A stretch of DNA of 64,000 nt from NCBI RefSeq assembly GCF_003148905.1, contig NZ_QGHC01000002.1, positions 186,001 through 250,000 on the forward strand, written 5' to 3'. This document shows positions 4,301 to 28,697 of the stretch, piece after piece. Under the pieces are notes generated by a model, which worked only from the letters and a program-made list of their open reading frames with translations, was not told the DNA's origin and made no database searches. Every line of letters starts with the position of its first letter. The stretch's first letter is position 1. Both the position numbers and the translations under genes were made by a program. The stretch comes from Fulvimonas soli (GTDB taxonomy: Bacteria; Pseudomonadota; Gammaproteobacteria; Xanthomonadales; Rhodanobacteraceae).

Positions 4301-5776
4301 TCAGCCCATCGCCGGCGACTCTTCCAGCCGCACGCGCAGCGTGCACAGCCCCGCCGCGAACAGGCTGGCCCCGCCCAGCGCCAGCGCCCACACCGCCTGG
4401 CCGTGGAAGAACAGCCGCAGCAGCGCGCCCAGCACGCTGGCCGCCACCAGCTGCGGGATCACGATGAAGAAGTTGAAGATGCCCATGTACACGCCCATCT
4501 TCGCCGCCGGCAGGCTGTCCGACAGCATCGCGTAGGGCAGCGACAGGATCGATGCCCAGGCGAAGCCCACGCCGAGCATCGGCAGCAGCAGCCAGTGCGG
4601 GTCGCGGATCAGCAGGAACGACAGCAGCCCTGCGCCGCCCAGCCACAGGTTGGCCAGGTGGCTGGCCTGCAGGCCCCAGCGGCGCACCATCCACGGGATC
4701 GTGATCGCCGCCAGCGCGGCGAAGCCGTTGTAGGCGGCGAACAGCACGCCGACCCAGTTGGCGCCCTCGTTGTAGGCCGCCGAATGCGGGTCGGCGCTGC
4801 CGAAGTGCACCGCGGTCACCGCCGCGGTGGCGTAGATCCACAGCGCGAACAGCGCGAACCACGAGAACAGCTGCACCCAGGCCAGCCGGCGCATCGCCTC
4901 GGGCATCGCGTGCAGGTCGCCCAGCACCTGCGCCAGCAGGTTGCGCCGGCGCGTGCGCGCCAGCCACAGCAGCAGCGCGCCGTAGGCCAGCATGCCGACC
5001 GACAGCAGGTACAGCTCGCGCTGCAGGGCGAAGCGCCAGACCAGCGCCGTGCCCAGCGCGCCGGCCAGCGCCCAGGCGATGCCGTTGCGCGCCGCGCCCG
5101 CGGGCGACGGGCGGTCCCCGCCGGCGGGCGCCGGGTCGAACGCGAGCAGTTGCCCGGGCGGATACTCGCGCGTGCTCGCCACCGTCCACAGCACCGCGCC
5201 GAGCAGCGCCGCGCCGCCGGCGTAGAAGGCGTAGCGCACGGTGTCGGGGATGCCGCCGGGCGGCGCGGCGTTGGCCACGCCGCAGCGCGCCAGCAGCCAG
5301 GGCATGGCCGAGGCGACCACCGCGCCGAGCGCGATGAAGAAGCCCTGCACGGCGTAGCCCAGCGGCCGCTGCGCGGGCGGCAGCTGGTCGCCGACGAAGG
5401 CGCGGAACGGCTCCATCGAGACGTTGATCGAGGCGTCCATCAGCCACAGCAGCGCCGCCGCCGTCCACAGCGTCGCGGCGTTCGGCATCCACAGCAGCGA
5501 CAGCGCGGCGAGCAGCGCGCCGGCGAGGAAGTACGGGCGGCGGCGCCCGAGCCGCGTCCAGGTGCGGTCGGACAGGTGGCCGACGACCGGCTGCACCAGC
5601 AGCCCGGTGACCGGCGCGGCCACCCACAGCACCGGGATCTGCTCCAGCGAGGCGCCCAGCGTCTGGAAGATGCGGCTGACCTCGGCCGTCTGCAGCGCGA
5701 AGCCGAACTGGATGCCGAAGAAGCCGAAGCACATGTTCCAGATCTGCCGGAACGACAGCGCGGGCCGCGCCTTCAT
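4301..5776 (-). CDS. MFS sugar transporter (GPH/SLC45-like)
   Basis: A 491-residue inner-membrane carrier with about 12 hydrophobic segments. The N-terminus [28 protein letters not shown] and the loop [13 protein letters not shown] between helices 2 and 3 are typical of the sucrose/maltose transporter branch (GPH/SLC45), which move glucosides by cation symport. The gene stands alone, with 199 nt upstream. That leader carries an 8-bp palindrome, ATACGTAT at 5931-5938, which could be an operator. Uptake of oligosaccharides released by the adjacent amylase is inferred from position only. Confidence 0.85.
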
Positions 5777-5975: not shown

Positions 5976-7172
5976 CTAGTCGCCCGGGTCCTCGCCGGGA
6001 TCGCGCCGCGGCGCCGCGGCGCGGCCGAGGATGGCCGCGGCGTCCTGGTCCAGCAGCGGCGCGGCGAACGCGGCCGGCCCCGGCGTGCGGCCGAACTTGA
6101 TCGGGTGGGCGACGCCGCGGTAGCGGCCCACGGCGGGATGCTCGAAGCCCGCCACCATGCCCTCGGCGAGCACCTGCGGGTGGTCGAACATGTCCTCGAT
6201 GCGCCGCGCCGCGGCGCACGGCACCTCGTCGCCGAACAGCGCCTCCCACTCCAGCGCGCTGCGCGCGGCCAGCGCGGCGTGCAGCTGCGGCACGATCTCG
6301 GCGTAGCGCTCGGCGCGCTTGCGCACGGTGTCGTAGCGCGGGTCGTCGTGCAGACGCTGCAGGCCGGTCTTCTCGCACAGCGCCTTCCAGAAGCGCGGCG
6401 TGTTGGCCGACAGGTACAGGTAGCCCTCGCGCGTGGGATGGATGCCGGTGACGCCGCCCGAGCGCATGTCGCGGCCGATGTCCAGCGCCTCGCCCTCGGC
6501 CCAGATCATCCGCGCCGACTGCATGGTCAGCGCGCTGCGCAGCAGCGACACGCCGACGAACTGGCCCAGCCCGCTGCGCTCGCGCTCGTACAGCGCCGAG
6601 GCCACCCCGGCGGCGAGCAGCGCCGCCGCGTAGTAGTCCACCACCGAGCCGTAGATGATCTCCGGCGGCCCGCCGCGCTTGCCCTGCAGCGCGCACATGC
6701 CGGTCATGGTCTGCAGCACCTGGTCGTAGCCGGCCTTGTCCTTCATCGGGCCCCGCTCGCCGTAGCCGGTGACCGCGCAGTAGATCAGCCGCGGGTTGAG
6801 CCGCGCCAGGCGCGGATGGTCGATGCCCAGCCGCGGCGGCACGCTCGGCCGGAAGTTGTGCACCAGCACGTCGGCCTCGCGCACCAGCCGCAGCAGCGCG
6901 GCGTGGTCCTCGGCGCGCTTCAGGTCCAGCACGACGCCGCGCTTGCTGCGGTTGACGCCGAGGAAGGCGCGGCTCTCGCTGGGCAGGGTCGAGGGGTACT
7001 GGCGCAGGTTGTCGCCGCCGGGCGGCTCGATCTTGATCACGTCGGCGCCCTGGTCGGCCAGCAGGGTGCAGCCGTAGGGGCCGGCGATGTAGGCGCTCAG
7101 GTCCAGCACGCGGATGCCGGCGAGCGGGCCCCGGCCGCGGGCGGCGTTCGAATCAGGCGGTGTGGTGTCCAT
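5976..7172 (-). CDS. CaiB/BaiF family (class III) CoA-transferase
   Basis: A 398-residue family III CoA-transferase, moving CoA between carboxylic acids through a covalent aspartyl-CoA intermediate. The N-terminal [16 protein letters not shown] block, the [12 protein letters not shown] block and the expected catalytic Asp150 in [11 protein letters not shown] are all present. The frame extends 32 codons upstream, but ATG 7172 begins a normal N-terminus. It is separated by 123 nt from the GH127 gene and has its own leader with a CACAA-N4-TTGTG dyad. With the CitE-like lyase at 22475, it could activate and cleave an organic acid; this link is inference. The acid is unknown. Confidence 0.88.
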
Positions 7173-7295: not shown

Positions 7296-9125
7296 TCACG
7301 GTGCCGGCGCCAGCGGCAGCCAGGTCAGCCGCCAGGCGCCGTCCGCGCGCCCGCCCGCGGCGAAGTAGGGCGCGAACAGCAGCGGCGCGCGGTAGCCCGG
7401 GTCGAGCGCGATGCGCGGCAGGCCGTCGGCCGCCGCCGGCCGCAGGGCCAGCCAGGCCTCCGGCGGCGCGTCGGGCAGGCGCAGCGTCTCCTCGGTCTTG
7501 AAGCCGTCGATCAGGCCGGTGGCGTAGACCAGCGGGCCGCAGGTCACCGCCGCGTACTCGAAACGCAGCACCTCCTGCCGCACCGGGCTGCCATCCGGCG
7601 CGCGCGACTCCTGCACGTTGCGGTTGACCGCGCGATGCAATCGCGGCCGCATCGGCAGGCGCAGCAGGATCGCCTCGCCGCCGCGCCACTCGCGCTCGAT
7701 CGCGGCGAAGCCGCCCGGCTGCACCGGCACGCCGGCCGCGCGGCCGTCGACCGCGAGCGTGGCGCCGTCGGCCCAGGAAGGGATGCGCAGCCGCAGCCGG
7801 AAGCGCGCGGGGCGCTCCACCGCGACGCGCAGGCGCACGTCGTCCGGGAAGGGGTAGGCGGTCTCCTGCAGCAGCCGCACCTCGCCCGCGTCGTCCCGCG
7901 CGAAGCGCGCCTCGCCCGGCCCGTACAGCTGCACCGCGACGCCGTCGGCGTCCTGCGCGTAGGCGAGCGCGGGCAGCTCCTCCAGCGCCATCGCGCCGCT
8001 GGACTTGCAGCAGCGCCAGTAGGTGGTGTGCACGCGCCGGCCGTTGGGGAACACGTAGTAGCACCAGTCCTCGCCGTCGGGCGCCTGCGCGCCGAGCAGG
8101 TCGTTGTAGGCCGCGCGCTCGATCTCCTCGGCGTAGCGCGCCGCGCCGGTGATCGCGAGCAGCTCGCGGTTGAGCTGGAGCCAGGCCAGCGTCGAGCAGG
8201 TCTCCACGTAGCCGTAGGGGCTGAACACGCCGGGCGGGTTGAACACCTCGCGCGAGCGCAGCGCCACGCCGCCCCACGGCCCGCCGCCGAGGGTGAGGTG
8301 GTGCTCGCGGATGCTGCGCCACAGCGACTCGACCGCGCGCAGCAGCTCGGGCTCGCCGGTGGCGCGGTGCAGCTTGGCCAGGCCGACCAGGTTCCAGGCC
8401 AGCTGGTAGGCCTTGCCGGTGGCGATCTCCGCCGCGTCCGCGCCGGCCAGCGCGCGACTCAGCAGGGCCAGCTGCGGGCAGCCGTCGGCCTGGCGCAGCA
8501 CGGTGCGCGCCAGCTCCAGGTAGCGCGGCTCGCCGGTGGCGAAGTACAGCTCCACCGCCGGGTCCAGCAGCACGCTGGCGGACAGCCCGAAGTGGTTGCC
8601 CAGCTCGGTGATGTCGATGCCGCCGGCGGTGAGCGTGCGCAGGCACAGGTCGCCGATGCGGCATGCGGCCTCCAGGTGCGCCGCGCCGCCGAAGTGGCGG
8701 TGCACCTCCAGCAGGCCGAGGATCAGGTAGGCGTGGGTCCACACGTCCCAGGTGCGCACGGCGGGCGCGCCGTCCCAGCTGACCGGCTTGGGCGGCTGCG
8801 GGCGCATGAAGCGGCGCTCCGGCGCGTAGGTGCCGAGGTAGCCGTCGGCCTCCTGCACCGAGACCAGGTAGCCGGCCACGCGCAGCACGCGCGCACGCAG
8901 CGCCGCGTCGCCGCTGCGCGCGGCGGCCCGGGCGGCGGCGACCAGCCACTTGCCGGCGTGCTCGCCGTACCAGTCGCCCTCGCGGTTCTCGCGCCGCCGC
9001 GCGGGCGCGAACAGCGCGATGGCGGGGCTGTGCTCGTCGACGATGAAGTGCGACAGGCGGCCGCGCCGGTTGGCTTCCAGCGCGTCGCCGAGCAGGCCGC
9101 GCAGGGTCGTGGTGGGCGGGGTCAT
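7296..9125 (-). CDS. GH127 beta-L-arabinofuranosidase-like protein (DUF1680)
   Basis: A 609-residue protein of the DUF1680/GH127 family, whose founding enzyme HypBA1 releases beta-L-arabinofuranose using a zinc-bound cysteine nucleophile. The metal and catalytic residues known for the family match here as Glu308 and Cys310 (YVETCSTLAW) and the pair Cys372-Cys373 (YWRCCKSSGA). The (alpha/alpha)6 barrel spans roughly 50-420, followed by beta-sandwich domains. No signal peptide is visible, so it is probably cytoplasmic. Its ATG overlaps the stop of the cytochrome fusion gene as ATGA. It is the last gene of the six-gene operon. Related families (GH146, DUF1680 members of other specificity) cannot be excluded. 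Confidence 0.88.
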   Translation of the reverse strand: MTPPTTTLRGLLGDALEANRRGRLSHFIVDEHSPAIALFAPARRRENREGDWYGEHAGKWLVAAARAAARSGDAALRARVLRVAGYLVSVQEADGYLGTYAPERRFMRPQPPKPVSWDGAPAVRTWDVWTHAYLILGLLEVHRHFGGAAHLEAACRIGDLCLRTLTAGGIDITELGNHFGLSASVLLDPAVELYFATGEPRYLELARTVLRQADGCPQLALLSRALAGADAAEIATGKAYQLAWNLVGLAKLHRATGEPELLRAVESLWRSIREHHLTLGGGPWGGVALRSREVFNPPGVFSPYGYVETCSTLAWLQLNRELLAITGAARYAEEIERAAYNDLLGAQAPDGEDWCYYVFPNGRRVHTTYWRCCKSSGAMALEELPALAYAQDADGVAVQLYGPGEARFARDDAGEVRLLQETAYPFPDDVRLRVAVERPARFRLRLRIPSWADGATLAVDGRAAGVPVQPGGFAAIEREWRGGEAILLRLPMRPRLHRAVNRNVQESRAPDGSPVRQEVLRFEYAAVTCGPLVYATGLIDGFKTEETLRLPDAPPEAWLALRPAAADGLPRIALDPGYRAPLLFAPYFAAGGRADGAWRLTWLPLAPAP

Positions 9126-11968
9126 TCGGTCTTCCCGGTGAGGTAGCGGGCGAGGGCGTCGATGTCCTGCGCGCCGAGGCCGGCGGCCTGCGCGCGCATC
9201 GCGCCTTGGGTCAGCGCCTGCACGATCTGTGCGTGCGTGCGCCGCGCGAGCAGCGCGCGCGGCGGCACGTTGCCCTGCGGCTGGTCGTGGCAGGCGGCGC
9301 AGCGCCGGGCGAACAGCGTGGCGCCGTCGAGGCCGCTGGACACGGCGGCCGGTGCGGGTGCCGCCGCCGGCGCGGCCGCCGGCACGTGCACGGCATGGAC
9401 CGCGCCCAGGCCGAAGGCCTGCAGGCGGTCGGTGCCCACCAGCACCAGGCCGCGCGCGACCACCGGCTCGGCGTACTTGCCGCCGGTGGACAGCTCGCCC
9501 GGCGCGCTGCGCCAGAGCAGGCGCAGGCTGTCCGCGTCGAAGGCGTACAGCACCGGCGCCGGCGCGCCGGCGCCGGCCAGCGGCGCCGAGCGCGGCGCGT
9601 TCTCGTCCAGCACCCAGACGACGGCGTCGCGCGCGCCGCGGCTGCTCACCACCGGCGAGCCGGGATTGCCGAACACCACCGACGGCTGCCGCCGGTCCAC
9701 CGCCAGCCAGGCGGGTCGGCCGGGCGCGGCCACCACGCGCAACCGCACCAGCGACGGCGGCACCGCGCGCGTGGAGCCCTTGCCCGCGCGGGTGTTGCCG
9801 GTCAGGTACACGTAGAGCGTGCCGTCGCCGCCGCGGAACGCGGCCGGCACCGAGCGGCCGCGGGCCGCGTCCAGCGCCGCGTCGTCGTCCGAGTACGGGC
9901 CGAACACGTTGAGCGGGCCGCGCCCGGCGAACTGGGGCTGGCGCTGCGGCGGCAGCAGCGAGCCGTCCGCGGCGGCATCGGCGCCGCACGGCGGGCGGCG
10001 GTCGAGCCGCCCGGGCAGGCGGTCGCGGTCGAGCAGGTAGGCGTTGCCCTGCTTGCCGCCCAGCGCCAGCAGGCGCGGCGTGGCGGTGGCGGCGGGATCG
10101 AGCACGGGCAGCAGCGCCACGCCGCCGGAGCCCAGGTCGATGTCCATCTTCGCCGTCGCGCAATAGTTGAAGGGCGTGTAGGTGCCGGCCAGGCGCAGCC
10201 CCTCGCCGGCGCGGTCGGACAGCTTCAGCACCGACTGCGTCCAGTCGTGCGGCTGCTCGCGGTAGCCGTCGAAGCCGCTGCCGGTGGCGACGTAGACGCT
10301 GCCGTCGGCGTCCACCGCCGGGCCGCCCGCGCCCCAGATGCCGCCGCTGCCCCGGTGCGGCATCGCCACCGCGGCGAAGGCGCTGTCGACCCGCGCGTGC
10401 ACGGTGTCCACCGCGGCCAGCCAGCCGGTCTCGGTCTCGCCGAAGGTGACGTACAGCCGCGTGCCGTCCGGGCTCAGGTTGAGCGCGCCGCGCTGCACGC
10501 GGAAGTCGAAGCGCCGCGTGGGCGGCACCGGGTGCGGGCCGGCGTTGCGGTTGACCGCGTTCAGCCGCGGCTCGTCCAGCCGCACCGGCCAGCCGGGCAG
10601 CACGGCGCCGCTGCCCAGGTCCAGCGCGTAGGCCTGCCAGCGGCTGCGCGGGTCGCAGTGGGTCACGTAGAGGCGGCCGCGCGCCACGTCGGCGACCGGC
10701 GTGCCCAGGATGCCGGTGGGCACGCCGTCCAGCGGCGCCGGCTGCAGGTGGCACGGCGCGGCCAGGCGCGTGCGCCAGAGGATGCGCCCGGGCGCCACGT
10801 CGCCGGCCCTGGCCGTGTTGATCGCGTAGACGTAGCCGTTGCTGCTGGCCACGATCGCCGCCGCGAAACGCTCGCCGCGGTGCTCGCCGGCGCTGACCGC
10901 CAGGCGCTCCAGGTACAGCGGCGAGGCGTACAGCCGCGGCGGCTGGCCATCGGCGGCGTCCAGGGGCGGCGATTCCCACAGCAGGCCGAACGCGGGGCCG
11001 GCCACGCGCGCCGGCGCGAGCGCGGTCTCCGCGGCGTTCCAGCCGCTGCGCTGCGCGTCGTGGTGGAACGTGGGCACGTCCAGGCGCGGGCCCTCCGGCG
11101 CGGCCGGTGCGGCGGCGGCCTCCTCGCGCACGGCGATGCGCGCGGCCGCGCCGGGCGCACCGGCGATCGCGGCGCCCGCGCGCGGCACCTCGATGCCGGC
11201 GCTCCACAGGATCGCGTTGAGCAGCAGCCGGCGCAGCATCGGCTGGTCCAGCGCCACCAGGTAGTGGCCGCCGCTGTAGCCGAAGGCGCGGCCGCCGCCG
11301 GGACGCTCGAAGGCCCAGGCGACCGGCACGTCCTCGGGCCGGTCCTCGACCACCGCGCGGCCGGCGCGGTACTGCGCGTGCAGCGTGGCTTCGAGCAGCG
11401 GCACCGCGCCCGGGGCGTAGCGGAAGGTGGGATAGAACTCGTCGCGGTAGGCGAACGCCCGCACGCCGCGCAGCACCGGATGCGCCGCCACGGGGCGCAG
11501 CGTCGCGGTCTCGGTGGTGCGGTCGTACAGGCCGTGGCGCGCCGCGCCCAGCCAGCGCGACAGGCCGATCGCGGCGTCGCCGGCGGGCACGGTGGAGGCC
11601 TGGTGCAGCGCCACCAGCCCCACGCCGCGGCGCATCAACGCCTCGAACGCGCGCCGCCGGGCGGGGTCCAGCAGCGGGTGCCGCGCGTCGCCGTCCAGAT
11701 ACAGCACCACCGTATCCGCGCCGTCGAAGGCGTGCGGATCGGACGGCCAGCCGTCCGGATGGCTTTCCACCCGCAGGCCGCGCGCCTGCGGCAGCGCGGC
11801 GAGGAAGCCGGCGAGCAGGCGCACGCCGTCGCCGTAGTCGTGGCGCGCCGGACCCTCGTGGCCGACGCCGCCGACCAGCACGATCTTCTTGGTCAGCGCG
11901 TGACCGACCCCGGCGACGGCCCAGGCCAGCGCCGCCAGCAGCAGGCAGGTCGGCCGCGCAAGCCTCAT
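9122..11968 (-). CDS. ThuA / PQQ-like beta-propeller / cytochrome c fusion protein
   Basis: A 948-residue exported protein built from three parts. A signal peptide (about 1-24) is followed by a ThuA-like domain (about 28-240, VLVGGVGHEGPARHDYG, then GLVALHQAST and GYSGGHYLV). Next is a long quinoprotein-like propeller (about 300-830, repeated GxLYV and GSVYVATGSGFDGY strands). A C-terminal class I cytochrome c domain has haem site CAACH at 890-894 and likely axial Met924. ThuA domains occur in sugar-utilisation genes, and PQQ-type propellers with cytochrome tails occur in periplasmic dehydrogenases. A periplasmic sugar-oxidising enzyme passing electrons to its own haem is inferred. Both ends overlap neighbouring genes by 4 nt. 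Confidence 0.82.
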   Translation of the reverse strand: MRLARPTCLLLAALAWAVAGVGHALTKKIVLVGGVGHEGPARHDYGDGVRLLAGFLAALPQARGLRVESHPDGWPSDPHAFDGADTVVLYLDGDARHPLLDPARRRAFEALMRRGVGLVALHQASTVPAGDAAIGLSRWLGAARHGLYDRTTETATLRPVAAHPVLRGVRAFAYRDEFYPTFRYAPGAVPLLEATLHAQYRAGRAVVEDRPEDVPVAWAFERPGGGRAFGYSGGHYLVALDQPMLRRLLLNAILWSAGIEVPRAGAAIAGAPGAAARIAVREEAAAAPAAPEGPRLDVPTFHHDAQRSGWNAAETALAPARVAGPAFGLLWESPPLDAADGQPPRLYASPLYLERLAVSAGEHRGERFAAAIVASSNGYVYAINTARAGDVAPGRILWRTRLAAPCHLQPAPLDGVPTGILGTPVADVARGRLYVTHCDPRSRWQAYALDLGSGAVLPGWPVRLDEPRLNAVNRNAGPHPVPPTRRFDFRVQRGALNLSPDGTRLYVTFGETETGWLAAVDTVHARVDSAFAAVAMPHRGSGGIWGAGGPAVDADGSVYVATGSGFDGYREQPHDWTQSVLKLSDRAGEGLRLAGTYTPFNYCATAKMDIDLGSGGVALLPVLDPAATATPRLLALGGKQGNAYLLDRDRLPGRLDRRPPCGADAAADGSLLPPQRQPQFAGRGPLNVFGPYSDDDAALDAARGRSVPAAFRGGDGTLYVYLTGNTRAGKGSTRAVPPSLVRLRVVAAPGRPAWLAVDRRQPSVVFGNPGSPVVSSRGARDAVVWVLDENAPRSAPLAGAGAPAPVLYAFDADSLRLLWRSAPGELSTGGKYAEPVVARGLVLVGTDRLQAFGLGAVHAVHVPAAAPAAAPAPAAVSSGLDGATLFARRCAACHDQPQGNVPPRALLARRTHAQIVQALTQGAMRAQAAGLGAQDIDALARYLTGKTE

Positions 11969-14151
11969 CCGGCATCCACGACGCAGCGGAAGCCGATGCA
12001 GCCGGAGCGGTCCTTGCACGGCGCCATCAGCAGGTACTTGCCGTGCTGGTCGAGCCGGTAGGCCTGCGGGAAGTACCAGTGCGAGGTGCGCGGGCGGTAG
12101 CGGCTGCCGCCGCGCAGGATCGCCGCGCGGGTGTGCGCGTCCTCGTACTCGTCGGTCCACTGCCACACGTTGCCGACCAGGTCGAGCACGCCGAACGGGC
12201 TGGCGCCGTCGGGATGCGCGTCCACGTCGTCCGGCGCGCGCAGCGTGCGGCCGCGGTGCGCGGCGGGCACGCGGGCGTCGTCCCAGGCGTCGCCCCACGG
12301 ATAGAGACGGCCGTCGCCGCCCTGCGCGGCGTACTGCCATTCCCATTCGTGCGGCAGGCGCTTGCCGGCCCAGGCGGCGTAGGCGCGCGCGTCCTCCAGC
12401 GCCACCCAGGTCACCGGCTTGCGCTCCCAGCCGGGCGGCGGCACGCCGTCGATCCAGTGGCGCAGGAAGTTGTGCGCGTCGCGCGGGCGCCAGCCGCTGT
12501 CGCGCAGGAAGGCGTGGAACGCCTCGTTGGTCACCGGCGTGCGGTCGATGTGGAAGGCGTCGATGCGCATGCGCCGGCGATGGTGGCGGCGCGGGACGTC
12601 TTCCCACGGGTACTGCACGTCGTTGCCGGCCCAGGTCTGCCCCTCGATTTCCACACCGCCCACCGCGAAGTCGAACTCGCCGGCGGGGATCGCCAGCATG
12701 CCCGGCGGCGGCGCGGCCGCGGGCGCGGTGCGCGCGATCGGCCGCAGCCGCTGCGGCAGCGCGCGCCACTGGTTCGCGTAGGCGTGCAGCGGCGTGGCCG
12801 CCCGCGCGCGCATGCGTTCGAGGAAGGCGTCCAGGCCGTCCGGCGCGGCGCCCGGCGCCAGCGCCAGCACCGCGCCGAAGCCGCGGCCCTCCAGCGGGAA
12901 GTCGAGCACCGCGCGGCCGCCGTCCAGCCGCGGCGCCAGCGCCGTGCCGTGCCAGACGTCGTAGTAGCGCGCGCCTTCGCGGTGCGGCACGGCGAGCTGC
13001 TCGCCCTCCACCGCGTACTCGTTGCGGTTGACCACCGTCCACAGCGTGTACGCCGGCAGCGGGAAGCGGCTGGCGAACACGCCGGCCTGCAGGGTGCGCT
13101 CGTATGGGCGCCAGTCCATGCTCACCAGCGCCGGCGCGAACTGCCGCTCGATCGCGGCGATCCGGCGCAGCGCCTCGGCGTCGCGCGGCACGAGCTGGTT
13201 CCACAGGCCCCAGACGTTCTCCCAGGCGTTGTAGCCGATGCCGTTGAAGAAGACGTACTGCAGGTCGTGGGTGCGGTCGCGGCCCCAGCGGTTCTCGTAG
13301 TTGATCATGTGGCGCGGTTCCAGCCACTTGAACTTGGCCACCGGCGGGACGACCTCGTTGGGCGCCTTCTTGCCCCAGCTCTGCACGTTCCAGATCAGCT
13401 GCTCCTCGGCGCTGATGGTGGACTCCGGCTGCAATACCACCGGATGGCCGAGCGCGTCGCAGGCGTCGAAGAAGGCGCGCGGCACGCCGTTGTAGGTGTC
13501 GCCGTTGATGCCGTCGGCGCCCACCGCGGCGACCAGCTCGGCGATCGCCTGCCAGTCGCGCTTGCCGGCCGGCCGCGTGCCGTTGTCCCACGGCATGGTG
13601 GGCAGGAACACGCGCACGCCGCGGCGGTGGAAGTCCTCGACCGCGCCGCGCAGGCCGTCGAGGCCGCCGGGCAGGTCGCGCGCCAGGTCGAACTGGTTGC
13701 GGTCGTCGATGCCGATGTTGGGGTAGACGTACCAGATCAGCACGCTGTCGATGCCGCCGTAGCGCGCCTCCAGGTCGTCCAGGTAGCGGTCCACCGTGTA
13801 GCGGCCGGCGACCGGGTCGTAGAAGTAGCGCTCCTCCGCCATCATCTGCGCGTGCACGAAGTTGCGCTGCGCCCACGCGAGCTCGGGGCGGCGGTAGTTG
13901 GCGTCGTCGTAGCCGATGCGGATCAGGTGCTCGCGCCGCCAGTCGGTCAGCTCGGCGATCCAGTCGTCGACGCTGCCGTCCACGTCGATCTTCCAGTGGC
14001 CGATCTCGGCGAACGGCCAGCCCGGCGCCTTGCCGGGCGTGGGCAGGTAGCGGCCGGTGGTGACGTGGGAGAACTTGTACTCGGTCTTCACCGCGGGCGG
14101 CGGCGCCTCGTCGGCAGGGTCCTCGCGCGGCGGTTCGGGGGCGATGGTCAT
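11965..14151 (-). CDS. Glycosidase-like domain fused to an FGE/SUMF1-like domain
   Basis: A 728-residue fusion. Residues about 35-440 look like a TIM-barrel glycoside hydrolase: YGGIDSVLIWYVYPNIGIDDRNQFD, then VGADGINGDT and VLQPEST would be successive barrel strands carrying acidic residues, but I cannot name the GH family. Residues about 485-725 are a formylglycine-generating-enzyme/SUMF1-like domain (IPAGEFDF, then GKRLPHEWEWQYAAQGG, GNVWQWTDEY, ILRGGS and IGFRCV). The cysteine pair that real formylglycine generators carry after GGS is absent; the segment reads SRYRPRTSHWY. Sulfatase-activating activity is therefore unlikely. No signal peptide is obvious. It overlaps the next gene by ATGA and follows the kinase gene by 13 nt. 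Confidence 0.75.
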   Translation of the reverse strand: MTIAPEPPREDPADEAPPPAVKTEYKFSHVTTGRYLPTPGKAPGWPFAEIGHWKIDVDGSVDDWIAELTDWRREHLIRIGYDDANYRRPELAWAQRNFVHAQMMAEERYFYDPVAGRYTVDRYLDDLEARYGGIDSVLIWYVYPNIGIDDRNQFDLARDLPGGLDGLRGAVEDFHRRGVRVFLPTMPWDNGTRPAGKRDWQAIAELVAAVGADGINGDTYNGVPRAFFDACDALGHPVVLQPESTISAEEQLIWNVQSWGKKAPNEVVPPVAKFKWLEPRHMINYENRWGRDRTHDLQYVFFNGIGYNAWENVWGLWNQLVPRDAEALRRIAAIERQFAPALVSMDWRPYERTLQAGVFASRFPLPAYTLWTVVNRNEYAVEGEQLAVPHREGARYYDVWHGTALAPRLDGGRAVLDFPLEGRGFGAVLALAPGAAPDGLDAFLERMRARAATPLHAYANQWRALPQRLRPIARTAPAAAPPPGMLAIPAGEFDFAVGGVEIEGQTWAGNDVQYPWEDVPRRHHRRRMRIDAFHIDRTPVTNEAFHAFLRDSGWRPRDAHNFLRHWIDGVPPPGWERKPVTWVALEDARAYAAWAGKRLPHEWEWQYAAQGGDGRLYPWGDAWDDARVPAAHRGRTLRAPDDVDAHPDGASPFGVLDLVGNVWQWTDEYEDAHTRAAILRGGSRYRPRTSHWYFPQAYRLDQHGKYLLMAPCKDRSGCIGFRCVVDAG

Positions 14152-14164
14152 GGCGTGCTTCGGG

Positions 14165-15112
14165 TCAGGGGAAGTCGAGGCCGCAGTAGGCGGCGAGCGC
14201 GGCGTGCGCGGCGGCGGCGGGCGCGGGCGCGGCGGCGAGCAGCCGCTCGACCTCCGCCTGCGCCGGCACGCCGGCCTGCGCGCCCAGCCGCGTGCAGGCT
14301 AGCGCAGATGCGGCGGCGGCGCGGCGCAGCCCCTGCGCGAACGGCAGGCCGCGGGCGAGCGCGGCCACCAGCGTGCCGCAGAAGGTGTCGCCCGCGCCGG
14401 TGGTGTCCACCGCGCGCACCGCGAAGGCCGGTTGCAGCAGCCACTCGCCGTCCACGCGCGCGCAGCAGCCGCGCGCGCCCAGCGTCACCACCAGCGCCGG
14501 CGCGTCCAGCATGGCCATGCCGGCGGCCACGCCCTCCACCCCGCTCAGCACGGCCAGCTCGCCCTGGTTGACCAGCAGCAGGTCGCAGTCGGCCAGCAGG
14601 CGCGGCGGCAGCGCCCGCGCGGGCGCGGCGTTGAGCGCCACCGCGACGCCGGCGGCGCGCGCCGCGCGCGCCCAGGCGGCCACGCTGTCCAGCGGCACCT
14701 CCAGCTGCATCAGCAGGTGGCTCGCGCCGTCCAGCGGCGGCAGGTGCTCCGGCCGCAGCAGCGCGTTGGCGCCGGGCGCCACGGTGATCGCGTTCTCGGC
14801 GTCGTCGGCGAGGCAGACGAAGGCCGCGCCGGTGGGTTGTTCGCGCACCCGTACCGCTTCCAGCGCCACGCCGGCCGCGCGCAGCGAGGCCTCGACCGGC
14901 GCGGCGTGGGCGTCCTCGCCCAGTGCCAGCAGCATGCGCGTGGCCGCGCCGCCCGCGCGCGCGCAGGCCACCGCCTGGTTGGCGCCCTTGCCGCCGGGAA
15001 AGGTGGCGAAGCCGTGGCCGAGCACGGTCTCGCCCAGCGCCGGCACGTGCGGCGCGCGCACCACGAAATCGAGGTTGGCCGAGCCGGCCACCAGCACGCC
15101 GCCCGCGCTCAT
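14165..15112 (-). CDS. PfkB family sugar kinase (ribokinase-like)
   Basis: A 315-residue ATP-dependent carbohydrate kinase of the ribokinase family. The N-terminal PfkB signature is at 40-50 (GGKGANQAVAC), and the C-terminal signature DTTGAGDTFCG has the catalytic base Asp242. It probably phosphorylates a sugar, most simply a pentose, in the cytoplasm. Its ATG overlaps the stop of the serine hydrolase gene as ATGA. Within the operon it would act after import and after pentose release by the GH127 enzyme. Ribokinase itself is the closest family type, but the substrate is not established, so no gene symbol is given. Confidence 0.85.
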   Translation of the reverse strand: MSAGGVLVAGSANLDFVVRAPHVPALGETVLGHGFATFPGGKGANQAVACARAGGAATRMLLALGEDAHAAPVEASLRAAGVALEAVRVREQPTGAAFVCLADDAENAITVAPGANALLRPEHLPPLDGASHLLMQLEVPLDSVAAWARAARAAGVAVALNAAPARALPPRLLADCDLLLVNQGELAVLSGVEGVAAGMAMLDAPALVVTLGARGCCARVDGEWLLQPAFAVRAVDTTGAGDTFCGTLVAALARGLPFAQGLRRAAAASALACTRLGAQAGVPAQAEVERLLAAAPAPAAAAHAALAAYCGLDFP

Positions 15113-16410
15113 GGCAGCGCCTGGTAGACCAGGTCGTAGAAGCGGTGCGCCAGCCGCGGCAGGTCCTTGCCGCCGTCCTCGCGCGGCAGGTGCTGCAGCA
15201 GCAGGATGGCGAGCAGCCGCTCCTTCGGGTCGATGCTGTAGTAGGTGGACGCCGCGCCGGACCAGCCGAACTGGCCGGGCGAGCCGAGCTGGCCGCGCAG
15301 CGCGGGGTCGAGCACCACGTAGCCGCCCAGGCCGAAGCCCTCGCCGGCGCTGAACTGGTCCACCGGCGGGTCGAGCATGCCCAGGTGGTTGCTCAGCATC
15401 GACTCCACCGTCTTGCGCCCCAGCAGGCGCCGGCCGTCGAGCGCGCCGCCGTCCAGCAGCATCTGCGCGAAGCGCGCGTAGTCGGGCGCGGTGGAATACA
15501 AGCCGCCCGCGCCGCTGGCGTAGGCGTTGAGCGGCGCGCCGGGATGCCGCGCGCTGGCGGTGTCGGCCAGGCGCAGCCGGCCGTCGGCGCCCATCGTGGT
15601 GAGATCGGCGACGCGGCCGCGCTGCGCGGCGGGCACGGCGAAGCCGGTGTCGCGCATGCGCAGCGGCGCGAAGATGCGCCGCTGGAGGAAATCGGCGAAG
15701 GATTGCCCCGAGGCCACCTCCACCACCCGCGCCAGCAGCTCCAGCGAGGCGCCGTCGTAGCCGAAGCGGGTGCCCGGGTCGGCGGCCAGCGGCACCCGGC
15801 TCATGCGCTCGGCGAAGCCGCGCAGGTCGGCCGCGCCGTGCGGGTCGATGCGCTCCATCACCTGCACCGCCGTTTCGTCGCCGGGCAGCCCGGCCGGGTA
15901 GCCGGCGGTGTGGGTGAGCAGCGCGTGCAGCGTGAGCGGCCGGCGCGCGGGGCGCAGCCGCGGCGCGTCCGCGCTGCCGCCGGCGAGCACCTGCGGCGCG
16001 TCGAAGCCGGGCAGGTAGCGCGACAGCGGATCGTCCAGCGCGAGCTTGCCCTCCTCCACCAGCATCATCACCGCGACCGTGGTCACCGTCTTGGTCATCG
16101 AGTAGATGCGGAAGATGTCGTCGCGGCGCATCGGCGTGCGGCGGGCGAGGTCGCGGTAGCCGTAGGCTTGCCAGTCGACGACGCGGCCGTCGCGCATCAG
16201 CAGCGACACGGCGCCGAGGTAGCCGTCCGCGGCGGTGGCGCGGCGCAGCCAGTCGTGCAGCCGCGCCAGCCGCGCGGGCGCGAAGCCCGGCATCGCCGCG
16301 GCGGGAGCCGGCGGCGCGCTGGACGCCGGCGCGCCCGGCGTGGCGGCGAGCAGCGCGGCCGCCAGCGCGGCCGCCCACGTCCTGCGCCTGCTTGTGCGTC
16401 GTGCGTCCAA
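15109..16410 (-). CDS. Serine hydrolase, class C beta-lactamase / EstB-like
   Basis: A 433-residue exported protein of the beta-lactamase-fold serine hydrolases. A signal peptide (about 1-31, Arg-rich then Ala/Leu) precedes the catalytic SMTK tetrad (Ser104, Lys107). Tyr218 in FGYDG takes the place of the usual YxN motif, which argues against true beta-lactamase activity and for an esterase or peptidase. It is 66 nt downstream of the TonB receptor gene and overlaps the kinase gene by 4 nt. In this operon it may remove ester groups from an imported sugar; that is inference. Confidence 0.8.
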   Translation of the reverse strand: MDARRTSRRRTWAAALAAALLAATPGAPASSAPPAPAAAMPGFAPARLARLHDWLRRATAADGYLGAVSLLMRDGRVVDWQAYGYRDLARRTPMRRDDIFRIYSMTKTVTTVAVMMLVEEGKLALDDPLSRYLPGFDAPQVLAGGSADAPRLRPARRPLTLHALLTHTAGYPAGLPGDETAVQVMERIDPHGAADLRGFAERMSRVPLAADPGTRFGYDGASLELLARVVEVASGQSFADFLQRRIFAPLRMRDTGFAVPAAQRGRVADLTTMGADGRLRLADTASARHPGAPLNAYASGAGGLYSTAPDYARFAQMLLDGGALDGRRLLGRKTVESMLSNHLGMLDPPVDQFSAGEGFGLGGYVVLDPALRGQLGSPGQFGWSGAASTYYSIDPKERLLAILLLQHLPREDGGKDLPRLAHRFYDLVYQALP

Positions 16411-16476: not shown

Positions 16477-18747
16477 TCAGAACGTGATGGTGTAGGTCAG
16501 CGAGGTCACCCGGCCGCGGCCGGCCCAGTAGTTCTGGTAGCCGGCCAGCTGCGACCAGCTCAGGATGTACTGCTTGTCGAACAGGTTCTCCACGCCCAGC
16601 GACAGCTTGCCGTCGCGGCCCAGGTCGTAGTTCACGCCCAGGTCGAACAGCGTGTAGCCGTGGGTCTTTTCCTCGTAGCTGAAGGTGGCGCCGTCGTAGG
16701 CGCGCGTGTCGTGGCCGGAGACGTGGCGGCCGGCCAGGGTGGTCGCGCCCAGGGTGGCGTCGGCGTTGGGCAGGAAGTTCCAGGTCACCGCCCAGGCGAA
16801 CTTGTCCGGGTTGATGTCCAGCACGCCCAGCGGCTTGTTGAGCCCGCCCGCGCCGTAGCGGCCGGCCGGGTCGGCGGACCAGAACGCGGTCTTGCCGGTG
16901 ATGTGCGAGTACAGCGCGGTGGCCTTCCACGCCTCGCTGATGCGCCACTCGCCGGTCAGCTCGGTGCCCTCGATGCGTACCGGCGCGCGCGACAGGATGA
17001 AGTCGCTGGTGTGCGGGTCCACCGCCAGCGAGGCGCCGAACGGCGACTTGGAGATGTAGTGGGTGGCGCCGAAGGCGGCGTTGTCGCCGTGCCAGTTGAA
17101 GCCGAACTCGTCGTTCTTGAAGATGATCGGCTCCAGGTCGCGGATGCGCGACACCGACTGCCCCGGCACGTTGATGTTGCGCAGCGGGATGCCGATGTTG
17201 GGCAGGGTGAAGCCCTCGCTGTAGGAGCCGTACACCGACCACTCGCTGCCGATGCGCCAGATCACGCCGGCGTTCTTCAGGTTCTCCTTGTACTTGAGCG
17301 AGCCGCCCTGCACGAACACGCGGTTGTTGTAGTAGGTGGTGGTGTAGCTGTTGACGGTGAGCTTGTCGTCCTCGCGGCGGTAGCCGGCGCTCAGCGTGAG
17401 CGGGCCGACGTCCCAGGACAGCTGGGCATACGGCGCGGTGCTCTTGTACTTCATCGGCGGCACCCACAGGCGGTCGGTCAGCGCCAGCCGCTGCTGCGCC
17501 TCGTCGCGGACGAAGTCCACGCCGGTGTGCAGCTCCAGCCCCTCGACGAACAGGTCCGGCCGCGTCCACGAGGTGCGCAGGCCCTTCTTGTGCGCGTCGA
17601 TCTCGGACTGGTCGTACAGCGTGCCGAGCGGGGCGATCAGCGGGTCCTGCTTGTCCTCGGTGTTCTCCGGCAGGTAGCGCATCGCCTGGTCGGCCTTGTA
17701 GGCGTTGAGGTCCAGCGAGCCGCCGAGGAAGCGGTCGTGGGTGTACTGCACGTTGTACTGCTTGAAGTCGTTGAAGGCGTCCTTGGAGCCGAAGATGTGG
17801 CCCTTCTCCGAGGTGTTGGTGCGCGGCACGGCGCACGGCGGGTCGTCGGTGGGGCCGCGGCAGCCGAGCACCTGGACGTAGTCGCCCTTGCCCTCGATCT
17901 TGAAGCGGCTGTAGCTGGCCTGCAGGCGCTGGTCGTTGTCCTGGCCGAAGTTGAAGCCGCCCTTGAGGAACAGGTTCTTCGAGGTGGAGTCGGCCAGCGA
18001 GCCGCTGGTGTTGAGGCCGATGCGGCGGCCGTTGCCGTCGTAGGTGATGCCGCGGTCGATGTACGAGCCGGCCACCAGCAGGTCGTAGTTCTCCTGCTTG
18101 CGCGCGAAGGTCATCCCCACCTTCCAGCCGCCGCTGTCGCGCGGCCCCTGGGTCTGGTAGCGCGTGGTCAGCGTGGTCTCGTTGCCCATCTTGGTGGGCA
18201 CCTTGGAGATGTAGTTGATGATGCCGCCGGCGGCGCCGATGCCCTCGGAGGCGGACGGGCCGTTGATCACCTCGACGCGGCCGACGATGCCCATGTCGGT
18301 GAAGGTGCCGTTGCGGGTGCCCTCGCGCAGCGGCGAGCCCTGCGGCACGCCGTCGAACAGGCGCAGCGGGATGCGCCCGCGCAGCGTCTCGCCGGTGTTG
18401 CTCATCGCCTGCGAGGACTCGGCGTAGCCGGGCACCGAGCGCGCCAGCACCGCGGTGGCGTCCTCGGTGACCAGCAGGGTGTGCTGGATCTCCTCCTTGG
18501 ACACCACGGTGATCGCGCCGGGGATCTCGTCGATCGCCTTGGGGCTGCGCGTGCCGGTGACGATCACCTGGCCGAGCTCCACCGGCGTCTTCTCCTTCTT
18601 CCTGGCGTCCTTCGCGTCCTGGGTGTCCTTCGTGCCGGCGTCCTGCGCGGCGCCGTCCTGCGGCCCGGTCGCGCCACCGCGCGCGTGCGCGCCGAAGGCG
18701 GAGGCCAACAGGATGCTGCCGATCGCTGCGGTGAGTGGCTTGATCAT
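16477..18747 (-). CDS. TonB-dependent outer-membrane receptor
   Basis: A 756-residue ligand-gated outer-membrane receptor. A signal peptide ends near residue 23 (AFGAHA), followed by a charged, Lys/Asp-rich linker. The TonB-box and plug region begins at VELGQVIVTGTRSPKAIDEIPGAI, and a 22-strand barrel ends in the aromatic TLTYTITF. The plug motif VEVINGPSASEGIGAAGGIINYIS is intact. ATG 18747 has AAGAGAA upstream and a proper signal peptide; the frame extends 20 codons further without support. It is the first gene of the operon down to the GH127 gene, suggesting uptake of an oligosaccharide. Siderophore uptake is the main alternative, since the plug also resembles FecA-type receptors. Confidence 0.88.
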   Translation of the reverse strand: MIKPLTAAIGSILLASAFGAHARGGATGPQDGAAQDAGTKDTQDAKDARKKEKTPVELGQVIVTGTRSPKAIDEIPGAITVVSKEEIQHTLLVTEDATAVLARSVPGYAESSQAMSNTGETLRGRIPLRLFDGVPQGSPLREGTRNGTFTDMGIVGRVEVINGPSASEGIGAAGGIINYISKVPTKMGNETTLTTRYQTQGPRDSGGWKVGMTFARKQENYDLLVAGSYIDRGITYDGNGRRIGLNTSGSLADSTSKNLFLKGGFNFGQDNDQRLQASYSRFKIEGKGDYVQVLGCRGPTDDPPCAVPRTNTSEKGHIFGSKDAFNDFKQYNVQYTHDRFLGGSLDLNAYKADQAMRYLPENTEDKQDPLIAPLGTLYDQSEIDAHKKGLRTSWTRPDLFVEGLELHTGVDFVRDEAQQRLALTDRLWVPPMKYKSTAPYAQLSWDVGPLTLSAGYRREDDKLTVNSYTTTYYNNRVFVQGGSLKYKENLKNAGVIWRIGSEWSVYGSYSEGFTLPNIGIPLRNINVPGQSVSRIRDLEPIIFKNDEFGFNWHGDNAAFGATHYISKSPFGASLAVDPHTSDFILSRAPVRIEGTELTGEWRISEAWKATALYSHITGKTAFWSADPAGRYGAGGLNKPLGVLDINPDKFAWAVTWNFLPNADATLGATTLAGRHVSGHDTRAYDGATFSYEEKTHGYTLFDLGVNYDLGRDGKLSLGVENLFDKQYILSWSQLAGYQNYWAGRGRVTSLTYTITF

Positions 18748-18953
18748 GGGCGGTTCTCTTGGTGTGCGGGTGGCGGCGGGCCGGCGCGCGAGGCGGGCCC
18801 GTGGCATGGCGTGCGGTGCGTCAGGAGCGGCGTGCTGCTTCGGCCTGGGCGACGCCCTCCCCCGGCGTCACTACTCGCGCTGTGCTCGAAAGTGCGAGCG
18901 AGCCTATGCGCTTCGCCGCCGGCATAGAACCGGCGCGGACTATGTTCAGAGGC

Positions 18954-19036: not shown

Positions 19037-19939
19037 TCAGGGCGCCGGCCGGCGCCGGTCCGCGCAACCGGACTGCACCGCGTTGCGGCTCTCCTGCAGC
19101 AGCGCCGTCACCAGCCGCACGCGCACGCTGGAACGCGACCACACGATGCCGATGCGCCGCGGCACCGTCGCGCCCGGCAGCGGGATGCGCGCCAGCCGCA
19201 GGCCCTCCGGCCAGGGCCGCGCCCAGTCCGGCACCAGCGACACGCCCAGCCCGCGGTCGACCATCACCGCGATCGCGTTGAGCGCGTTGAGCTCGAAGCG
19301 CTCGCGCGGCACGATGCCGTTGGCGCGCAGGTACTCGTCGGCCTGGCGGCCGCCCCACTGGTTGCGGTCGTAGCGGATCAGCGGCTGCGTCGCCAGCAGC
19401 TCGTGCGGGTCGCGCCCGGCCATGCCCGCGGGCGCCAGCACGATCAGCGGCTCCTCGCGCAGCAGCTGCCACTCGCAGGTCTTGGGCAGCGGGAACGGCG
19501 CCTGCAGCACCACCGCCGCGTCGAGCTCGCCGCCCTCCACCGCGCGGTACAGGTCGGCCGAGTAGCCCGGCTTGATGAACACGTTGATCTTCGGGAAGGC
19601 CTCCACCATCCGCGCCAGCACGTCCGGCAGCATGCCGGCCAGCGCGGTGGGGCAGGCGCCCAGGCGCAGCTCGCCGGAGACCGCGCTCTCGTTGGCCAGG
19701 CTGCGCAGGTCGGCCACCCCGCGCAGCAGCTCGCGGGTGCGCTCCAGGATGCGCGAACCCTCCTCGGTGACGCTCACCGTGCGGCCCACGCGGGCGATCA
19801 GCGGCGCGCCGATCTCGCGCTCCAGCGTGCGGATCTGCTGCGCCACCGCCGCCGGCGTGATGTTGAGCGCGCGCGCCGCCGCGGCCATCGAGCCCTGCTC
19901 GACGACGGTGACGAAGGTATGCAGGAACTGGGTTTCCAC
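19037..19939 (-). CDS. LysR family transcriptional regulator
   Basis: A 300-residue LysR-type regulator. The N-terminal winged helix (residues 1-60, FVTVVEQGSMAAAARALNITPAAVAQQIRTLE) is complete and the co-inducer-binding domain runs from about 90 to 290. It lies between the TonB receptor operon and the symporter/CitE-like pair, all on the same strand. LysR proteins usually control neighbouring genes, so either or both units are likely targets. The two TAGTTTTT-containing dyads (18954-18986 and 23401-23419) fit that. The effector is unknown. Confidence 0.9.
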   Translation of the reverse strand: METQFLHTFVTVVEQGSMAAAARALNITPAAVAQQIRTLEREIGAPLIARVGRTVSVTEEGSRILERTRELLRGVADLRSLANESAVSGELRLGACPTALAGMLPDVLARMVEAFPKINVFIKPGYSADLYRAVEGGELDAAVVLQAPFPLPKTCEWQLLREEPLIVLAPAGMAGRDPHELLATQPLIRYDRNQWGGRQADEYLRANGIVPRERFELNALNAIAVMVDRGLGVSLVPDWARPWPEGLRLARIPLPGATVPRRIGIVWSRSSVRVRLVTALLQESRNAVQSGCADRRRPAP

Positions 19940-22478: not shown

Positions 22479-23323
22479 CCGGCCGCGGCCACGATCGCCT
22501 GCGCGCGCTTGAGGAAGGGCAGGTCGATCATGCGTCCGTCGACCACGAAGGCACCGCGGCCCGCGCGCTCGGCCTCGGCCGCCGCGGCGACGATGCGCCG
22601 CGCGGCCGCCAGTTCCGCCTCCGACGGCGCGAACGCCGCGTTGGCCAGCGCCACCTGGCGCGGATGGATGCAGCTCTTGCCCAGGTAGCCCAGCCGCCGC
22701 GCCATGCGCGCCTCCGCCGCGAAGCCGGCGTCGTCGGCCAGGTCGGCGAAGGCGCCGTCGAGGGCGAACACGTCCGCCTGCGCCGCCGCCATGCGCACCG
22801 CGAACATCGCCGCGTGCACGCTGGCGGCGTCGCGGCGGTCGATCCCCTGCGGCTCGAACAGGTCGCCCAGCCCCAGCTGCAGGCCGGCCACGCGCGGGTG
22901 CGCGCCGGCCAGCGCGGCGGCCCGCGCCAGCGCCAGCGGGGTTTCGATATTGACCAGCAGGCGGATCGGCGCGGCCACGCCGTTGGCCCGCTCGGCGCGC
23001 TCCACCGCGGCCGCGGCCGCGCGCAGCGCCGCGGCGGATTCCAGCTTGGGCAGGTTGAGCAGGGCCACGCCCGGGCACGCCACCGCGCGCAGGTCGTCCT
23101 CGAAGTACGGCGTGCCCGGCGCGTTGACGCGCACGATCACCACCTTGGCCGCGGCGCGGACCGCGGCCGAGCCGACGAAGGCGGCCACCTGCGCGCGCGC
23201 CTCGTCCTTGCGGCCCGCCGCGACCGCATCCTCCAGGTCGAAGGAGAGCGCGTCGGCCGGGCCGGCCAGCGCCTTGGCGAACAGCTCCGGCCGCGCCCCC
23301 GGCACGAACAGCTTGCTACGCAT
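22475..23323 (-). CDS. HpcH/HpaI aldolase / citrate lyase beta-like (CitE) protein
   Basis: A 282-residue enzyme of the CitE/malyl-CoA lyase-like family, which cleaves or forms C-C bonds in acyl-CoA or keto acids using a divalent metal. The N-terminal [18 protein letters not shown], the metal-binding segment [10 protein letters not shown], the [11 protein letters not shown] strand (metal-binding Glu) and [10 protein letters not shown] are all characteristic. It is the promoter-proximal gene of a pair with the symporter fusion. No CitF or CitD partner is present, so a citramalyl- or malyl-CoA type lyase is more likely than citrate lyase. A pathway link with the CaiB-type transferase at 5976 is inference. 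Confidence 0.85.
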
Positions 23324-23400
23324 GGGCCACGACCGTCCTCGTCATGGGCGGCAGTGTGCGGCAAGGCAACGCGCGGAACGCACAGCACGGGCATGTTCAT

Positions 23401-23419
23401 TCGATAGTTTTTCTATCGA
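23401..23419. promoter_or_regulatory. Perfect dyad TCGATAG-N5-CTATCGA, likely operator
   Basis: A 7-bp perfect inverted repeat around TTTTT, 78-96 nt upstream of the CitE-like gene in the 352-nt divergent gap 23324-23675 that it shares with lhr. Its position and its ATAG-N5-CTAT core suit a LysR-type site. No gene is seen in the rest of the gap. Confidence 0.5.
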
Positions 23420-23675
23420 CCGGGCGGGCCACTGTAGGGCGCGCGGCACGCGCCCGCCAGGTGGCGGCGCCCCCGCAGCCCGGTATGCCGCGCGCATGCG
23501 GCCGGCAGCGCGCCCGCCGAACGCGCGGCAAATGTCGGCACGACCGTTCCGCGGCTTCCACTTGGGATGGCCCGCGCCCGGCATCATCTTTGATCCCGTG
23601 GCCGCCTTCCGCAGGCGCAGCCGCCGAGACCGCCGCCGGCGATGCTGGCGTATCCTCCAGGCCACCGTCCGACCG

Positions 23676-28697
<5,022 letters not shown>

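Follow-up and report, generated by a model that had tools for sequence, protein, structure and literature searches.

Type II quinohaemoprotein alcohol dehydrogenases (1kb0, 1yiq) are among several described systems that resemble the subject of this report, a fusion protein of 948 residues encoded at 9122-11968 on the reverse strand of a 64,000-nucleotide stretch of Fulvimonas soli DNA (hereafter the window), in which a ThuA domain, a beta-propeller and a cytochrome c domain follow one another in a single chain. In 1kb0, a propeller is likewise followed by a C-terminal cytochrome c, and the pocket aspartate and lysine of these enzymes align with residues of the fusion protein. In quinoproteins, this aspartate is the catalytic base and the lysine, or an arginine, contacts the cofactor pyrroloquinoline quinone (PQQ). 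Compared with 1kb0 and 1yiq, the fusion protein adds an N-terminal ThuA domain, has no vicinal cysteine pair and has an asparagine replaced in 18 of 19 family members; moreover, no quinoprotein model exceeds its cut-off for the window protein, and 11 of the 12 carriers (genomes encoding the fusion protein) found in the window's order lack PqqC and PqqE. ThuA itself is, to our knowledge, a widespread family whose chemistry is unclear.

The order ThuA, propeller, cytochrome c was sought elsewhere and found in a genome of the same class, where locus L073 holds it in one 816-residue frame with a GSDH propeller and a cytochrome c recognised by Pfam. L073 differs from the window protein in its propeller type (PF07995, 5.3e-35; the window protein has no PF07995 match at E 1) and in its typical-scoring ThuA domain (PF06283, 6.9e-68). 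It was the sole single frame with both ThuA and a CXXCH motif among six ThuA regions with long frames that were examined, of which L072 was seen as 832 of 2039 residues, and G586 and G501 (frames of 586 and 715) were motif-filtered and returned nothing. The domain order exists with a GSDH propeller too and is not unique to this family; the novelty lies in a different, quinohaemoprotein-like propeller being paired with a derived ThuA domain, and in the strict association of the protein with one operon. Among the open-access matches listed, outside of which lie subscription journals and preprints, we recognised no paper describing a ThuA-propeller-cytochrome protein.

Other described systems share single aspects of the locus. 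BamB, YxaL and tetrathionate hydrolase have a similar propeller fold (Z 26-28) and are not known to hold a cofactor or to have a ThuA or haem part. A ThuA protein of Spirosoma oryzicola shares subfamily residues and a glycan locus with the fusion protein, and differs in being a protein without propeller or haem, with a Gfo/Idh/MocA oxidoreductase in its locus. A further parallel lies in the logic of periplasmic glycoside oxidation followed by proposed cleavage of the keto-glycoside: in Caulobacter, lactose is oxidised in a system of the periplasmic 3-dehydrogenase LacABC and a DUF1080 protein, and hydrolysis of the keto-sugar in the periplasm is proposed (PMC9007349). The protein families differ, making this an analogy and not a homology.

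The gene for the fusion protein runs from an ATG at 11968 to a stop at 9122 without internal stops, and ATGA overlaps join both of its ends to its neighbours, the start codon with the upstream stop and its stop with the next ATG. Its parts are as follows, all on the reverse strand.

11897-11968, reverse strand: candidate signal peptide, residues 1-24, recognised by eye, with cleavage after GHA
11183-11893, reverse strand: ThuA domain, residues 26-262, of a derived subfamily (PF06283 at 84-255)
11078-11182, reverse strand: variable linker rich in Ala and Pro, residues 263-297, weakly conserved in the alignment and of low model confidence at 287-291
9410-11077, reverse strand: beta-propeller, residues 298-853, probably eight-bladed (Foldseek, VIA, hhalign, hmmsearch)
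10334-10336, reverse strand: Trp545, possible pocket floor, invariant in 24 of 24 rows; its alignment partner varies
10136-10144, reverse strand: Asp609-Ile-Asp611, both Asp conserved in 24 of 24 rows, with Asp611 as candidate for the catalytic residue
10052-10054, reverse strand: Lys639, at the quinoprotein Lys/Arg position by alignment, 24 of 24 rows
9125-9340, reverse strand: cytochrome c domain, residues 877-948 (PF13442, 1.3e-7), with Met924 invariant in 11 rows
9287-9301, reverse strand: CAACH haem-binding motif, residues 890-894, read from the sequence

That ThuA, propeller and haem domain form one exported chain, as the earlier note on this DNA had read it, is borne out by the intact frame, by Pfam and by the predicted structure, the signal peptide being a reading by eye; in several relatives, a lipobox-like LLSAC or LAGC replaces the plain signal peptide end. 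Pfam places ThuA (PF06283) at residues 84-255 with 2.5e-17 and 64.3 bits (cut-off 33.4), and Cytochrome_CBB3 (PF13442) at residues 881-943 with 1.3e-7 and 32.3 bits against a cut-off of 27. The CAACH motif lies inside the latter match, and Met924, invariant across 11 aligned rows, is likely the second, distal haem ligand. Covalent haem attachment would be made possible by CcmE, present in 12 of 12 carriers. An AlphaFold2 model of the 948-residue protein, built from a 22-row alignment, has a mean predicted local distance difference test score (pLDDT) of 81.9, falls below 50 at residues 287-291 in the linker, and matches solved propellers across about residues 291-856.

The joining of the three domains in one chain is genuine. 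A scan of GTDB species genomes for relatives gave 15 loci, nine of which (L002-L010) are near full length, hold the whole protein in one frame and are 61-67% identical in their best segments. Two loci of Massilia arenosa (L011 and L015) both end at contig ends and together resemble one split copy, and L014 and L016 are truncated by contig ends. L013 (4723-6501, in a cyanobacterial metagenome-assembled genome, MAG) encodes a lone propeller with its own signal-like start and no ThuA or haem in the protein. Within the window's order, propeller matches at E of 0.001 or better occur in 15 of 299 genomes; 12 of them, the window's genome included, are near full length (E <= 7.6e-275) and all 12 encode, within a single frame, ThuA with its motif RDEFYP, the propeller and CXXCH, the other three being weak and distant. 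A phylum-wide sample of 299 genomes gave four matches, full only in the window's genome and G032, and 11 of 72,556 records of a plasmid collection matched, none over 80% of the query. Five of the 12 order carriers are the same genomes as loci of the GTDB scan, and the distinct carriers of ThuA, propeller and haem number 18: the 12, plus L003, L006, L009, L010, L011/L015 and L012. A chance join, or the sequencing error that the earlier note had kept in view, is ruled out by the nine relatives and the 12 of 299 genomes with one frame, together with the ATGA overlaps. The parts are encoded separately in one relative, L012, where ThuA (266 residues) and propeller-haem are two adjacent frames of the same operon, an arrangement that speaks for a joint role and not for an error in sequencing.

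Judged by its distribution, the fusion protein belongs as an accessory to a single conserved glycan operon. The conserved gene order is a CitE/HpcH-like lyase, a sodium symporter, a regulator, a TonB receptor, a serine hydrolase, a PfkB kinase, an FGE protein, the fusion protein where present, GH127 and a CoA-transferase of family III, and a glycan-operon context of the fusion gene is supported. As a marker of this operon we used the N-terminal part of the FGE protein, which has no Pfam match. The marker occurs in 30 of the 299 order genomes and in 12 of the 12 carriers among them, a coincidence with a probability of 1.0e-13 if genomes were independent. The fusion gene adjoins the marker in seven of these carriers and lies elsewhere in five (G125, G258, G032, G211 and G272). 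Among seven further genomes, the marker is present in all six with ThuA and propeller and not in the cyanobacterium with the lone propeller (L013); L003, L009 and L011/L015 have no marker inside the flanks examined. Altogether, the genomes of 18 of 18 carriers contain the marker, which is not near the fusion gene in eight of them.

The operon also exists in a form without the fusion gene. In all 15 non-carriers fetched, out of 18 marker genomes of this kind, the FGE gene is directly followed by GH127, within about 120 bases by match ends. A tree of 26 marker proteins was built from 13 carriers (10 of the 12 order carriers plus L006, L010 and L012) and 13 of the 15 non-carriers, two having been lost to the motif filter. 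On this tree, carrier status needs nine changes, of which branches with good support force at least five, and a count as low arose in 306 of 500 shuffles. Carriers are scattered over the marker tree, and the dependence on the operon is therefore more than plain common descent; the module appears to have been repeatedly gained and lost, yet has been observed only with the glycan operon. This ThuA subfamily thus shares a chain with an electron-transfer domain and is linked genetically to a single type of operon, and the 12 sampled genomes with the fusion protein, set beside the 18 with the operon marker and without it, form a comparison set for the function of the module.

We tentatively favor the view that the protein is a periplasmic multidomain redox enzyme serving the glycan operon, in which the propeller oxidizes a sugar, the haem domain takes the electrons and ThuA acts on the product. 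A sugar would enter the periplasm through the TonB receptor and be oxidized by the propeller with a bound redox cofactor, either scavenged PQQ or something else, and the electrons would pass through the fused haem c to the respiratory chain. ThuA would then act on the oxidized sugar (it might, for instance, cleave or rearrange a keto-glycoside or open a lactone), and the product would be imported by the operon's transporters and finished by the cytoplasmic hydrolase, kinase and CoA enzymes. The earlier note had proposed that ThuA acts on a periplasmic sugar and that electrons go to the respiratory chain; the exported chain, the haem domain and the glycan-operon context are supported, and the chemical steps themselves are all ones that we infer. 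The redox-enzyme reading is supported by the domains themselves, by the ten highest Foldseek ranks, the enlarged hhalign and the 1yiq match, and the invariant Trp, Asp and Lys residues described below, by CcmE, the link to the marker, the scatter of carriers on its tree, the adjacent frames of L012 and the Spirosoma locus, and by the LacABC precedent.

Sequence comparison shows the ThuA domain to be of a derived subfamily that has a conserved site of its own. We compared the 19 family rows with 28 other ThuA sequences (the 27 loci, out of 30, that gave an open stretch, plus L073), a set in which the strand was assigned by motif and a few rows may be misread. His122, Glu177, Tyr179, Trp218, Arg227 and His235 are each present in 19 of 19 family rows, and in 28, 26, 25, 24, 22 and 28 of the 28 comparison rows, respectively. 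By contrast, position 126 is Thr in all 19 family rows versus Asp in 24 of 28 comparison rows, and the His-Pro at 147-148, kept in 24 and 23 of 28, respectively, is found in none of the family. Further invariants of the family are His43, Gln123, Arg144, Arg150, Arg175 and Asp176. The nearest ThuA in the plasmid collection, the stand-alone protein WP_232563236.1 of Spirosoma oryzicola (35.9% identity over residues 26-261), has several of the same subfamily residues. By annotation, this ThuA stands at the end of a plasmid locus (L124, 1797-14335) that holds GH5, a TonB receptor, RagB/SusD and GH140, as well as two xylose-isomerase-like TIM barrels, the Gfo/Idh/MocA oxidoreductase and PhyH. The earlier suggestion that the protein could reveal the ThuA reaction calls for caution, given a derived subfamily without two typical ThuA features and the existence of the same domain order with another propeller.

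The propeller fold, probably eight-bladed, is clear in the predicted model, and it is shared with cofactor-free propellers; the fold alone says nothing about a bound cofactor. Foldseek against the PDB ranks PQQ dehydrogenases at all of places 1-10, the best being the quinohaemoprotein 1kb0 (2.2e-14, 788 alignment columns). Among the matches listed by VIA-align, the closest are the designed propellers Scone (Z 28.6) and the eight-bladed Tako8 (Z 27.8), and L-sorbose dehydrogenase 4mh1 has the longest alignment (418 aligned, Z 26.0, root-mean-square deviation 3.5). In sequence comparisons, PQQ_2 is matched at E 0.1 or better in seven of 10 relatives, at best with 1.3e-5. When five distant propellers were added to the 19 family rows, hhalign matched them to 21 PQQ alcohol dehydrogenases with 96.6% and 6.4e-10 over 467 columns, a significance that depends on enlarging the family alignment with the distant propellers. 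An hmmsearch of the PDB with a 12-row alignment that also includes five distant propellers, taken from the order and phylum scans with L031, L034, L035, L036 and L038 left out, found 1yiq at 3e-5. Neither the 10-row propeller family nor the complete protein gave anything usable in PDB sequence searches. The 25 quinoprotein reference loci passed through a motif filter, which kept 19 (six dropped) in a first comparison and 21 (four dropped) in a second. By these profile comparisons, the propeller is remotely related to the PQQ alcohol dehydrogenases.

Its putative pocket keeps part of the quinoprotein frame. Trp545, Asp609, Asp611 and Lys639 are each present in 24 of 24 rows (19 family, five distant). 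Three alignments pair Asp611 with the WD-motif Asp of PQQ dehydrogenases, and Lys639 pairs with the Lys of 1yiq in the hmmsearch alignment or with the Arg of DRNG in the 10-row hhalign, this match to the quinoprotein pocket being one of sequence alignment and not of structure. Propellers of related bacteria at 24-31% identity (L029, L030, L032, L033 and L037) have the same invariant Trp, Asp and Lys and keep the Asn; they make up a wider propeller family without an assigned function.

A number of observations weigh against a PQQ-type redox enzyme tied to this operon. In structure comparisons, the TM-score of 1kb0 by target is only 0.47, the top value in Foldseek, and among the VIA-align matches listed, YxaL (Z 28.0) and BamB (Z 27.6) score at least as high as the quinoproteins. 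In sequence comparisons, the window protein matches PQQ_2 at 0.0075 with 16.4 bits, below the cut-off of 27.6, and matches neither PF01011 in Pfam nor any of the quinoprotein models of NCBIfam; the 10-row family alignment against 19 PQQ alcohol dehydrogenases reached a best hhalign probability of 10.3%, which is not significant. Within the pocket, the partner of Trp545 varies, being the GGGTAW Trp of 1yiq in hmmsearch versus an earlier Trp, with the floor Trp gapped, in both hhalign runs. At the place of the calcium-site Asn of GTGN, 15 of the 19 family rows have Ser, three have Thr and one has Asn, which five of five distant propellers keep (GTGN is present in 21 of 21 reference rows, but these had been selected by GTGN). 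The vicinal Cys pair (CCD), present in 21 of 21 references, is found nowhere at the aligned place in the family. In addition, 18 of the 30 marker genomes have no fusion protein.

The genomes point in the same direction. PqqC was found in one of 13 genomes searched (12 carriers plus G279), namely G053, and PqqE passes its cut-off in one of 12 carriers, again G053, and is missing in the other 11; the window's genome, rated 100% complete, has neither PqqC nor a PqqE over the cut-off. As positive controls, both of two added genomes pass the PqqE cut-off, and weak matches below it occur in all 14 genomes (12 carriers plus the two added) and likewise in all 14 control genomes. A single weak match to the PQQ alcohol dehydrogenase model (7.8e-8, under the cut-off) was found in the window's genome. 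As 11 of 12 carriers, the window's genome included, show no PqqC and no PqqE over the cut-off, the propeller may use scavenged PQQ, another cofactor or none, and the label 'quinoprotein' is unproven. What stands of the earlier reading as a quinoprotein-type propeller is the remote kinship and the invariant Asp and Lys; PQQ itself finds no backing in the Pqq genes, the calcium Asn or the vicinal Cys. More generally, propellers resembling BamB or PQQ_2 should not be named 'PQQ enzymes' in bacteria without PQQ-synthesis genes.

The main rival draws on these same points: the propeller could be a cofactor-free binding or scaffold part, as in BamB and YxaL, that gives the glycan to ThuA, with the haem c partnering another periplasmic dehydrogenase. 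We consider this rather unlikely. The missing PqqC and PqqE, the lost calcium Asn and vicinal Cys, Z values of YxaL and BamB at least equal to that of sorbose dehydrogenase, and a cyanobacterial relative consisting of a propeller without ThuA or haem are all in its favor, but it must contend with four pocket residues invariant in 24 of 24 rows, with quinoproteins ranked first by Foldseek and with a haem fused to the propeller, which would be hard to explain without a local source of electrons.

The protein might instead be one more ThuA-dehydrogenase-cytochrome polypeptide, an unremarkable propeller swap without special bearing on ThuA chemistry, for which L073, from the same class and with a single frame for ThuA, GSDH and cytochrome c, is a ready precedent; the derived ThuA subfamily and the tie to one operon type are more specific than expected of a generic module, and we find this account improbable. 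A narrower version of the redox-enzyme reading, about as doubtful or slightly more so, would have a quinoprotein-derived propeller that lost the PQQ site, kept the Asp and Lys (and Trp) frame and works by another or a haem-only redox mechanism, with the derived ThuA acting on the oxidized sugar. If true, this would be a new class of periplasmic oxidize-then-cleave enzyme, with carrier and non-carrier operons as natural controls. Quite improbable, finally, is a propeller acting as hydrolase or lyase, a use of the quinoprotein fold like that of tetrathionate hydrolase, with ThuA or haem serving another step: tetrathionate hydrolase has one of the closely matching folds (Z 26.2, 360 aligned) and PQQ-synthesis genes were not found in 11 of 12 carriers, but the fused haem domain suggests electron transfer, and Pfam finds no sulfatase or sulfur-oxidation enzyme among nine window proteins, the upstream FGE-type domain being the sole loose link to sulfur.

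In the window, the neighbors of the fusion gene are the following.

4301-5776, reverse strand: sugar-type major facilitator superfamily (MFS) transporter (PF07690, 6.2e-19; PF13347, 3.4e-8)
5976-7172, reverse strand: coenzyme A (CoA)-transferase of family III (PF02515, 3.4e-116)
7296-9125, reverse strand: GH127-type hydrolase, the coupled downstream gene (PF07944, 6.4e-44)
11965-14151, reverse strand: FGE-domain protein, the coupled upstream gene and operon marker (PF03781, 1.4e-34), with no signal peptide by eye
14165-15106, reverse strand: PfkB-family sugar kinase (PF00294, 5.5e-48)
15109-16410, reverse strand: serine hydrolase of beta-lactamase fold (PF00144, 4.2e-69)
16477-18807, reverse strand: TonB-dependent receptor, start codon uncertain (PF00593, 8.2e-29; PF07715, 2.4e-10)
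19037-19939, reverse strand: regulator, conserved beside the operon, which by eye we take to be LysR-like
20037-22475, reverse strand: sodium/solute symporter with a long N-terminal extension (TIGR00813, 1.3e-63 over 353-756)
22475-23323, reverse strand: CitE/HpcH-type C-C lyase (PF03328, 1.9e-38), below cut-off to citE and RipC

Several of these genes offer hints to the substrate. The CoA-transferase and the CitE/RipC-like lyase suggest that an organic acid on or from a sugar is activated and cleaved, and together with GH127 and the kinase they provide a lead to a substrate in which a sugar is linked to an organic acid. The sole NCBIfam match of the GH127-type hydrolase at 1e-5 or better is to aceric acid hydrolase, far below the cut-off, which may point to an acidic sugar with a branch. 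The first part of the FGE protein (about 480 residues), with relatives 65-80% identical, has no Pfam match at 0.1 and a best E of 0.13 in a PDB profile search; its predicted model (pLDDT 53.5) is too low for use, and this part may be an enzyme family without assignment.

Two side observations concern neighboring frames. In the L010 MAG, a frame adjoining the operon (L010, 2-2185) reads by eye as what we take to be an arylsulfatase. In the window, a long frame on the forward strand (22704-28697), helicase-like by eye, contains a stretch of 23 residues twice and a similar stretch, apparently reversed; the repeat is perhaps an in-frame inserted repeat element.

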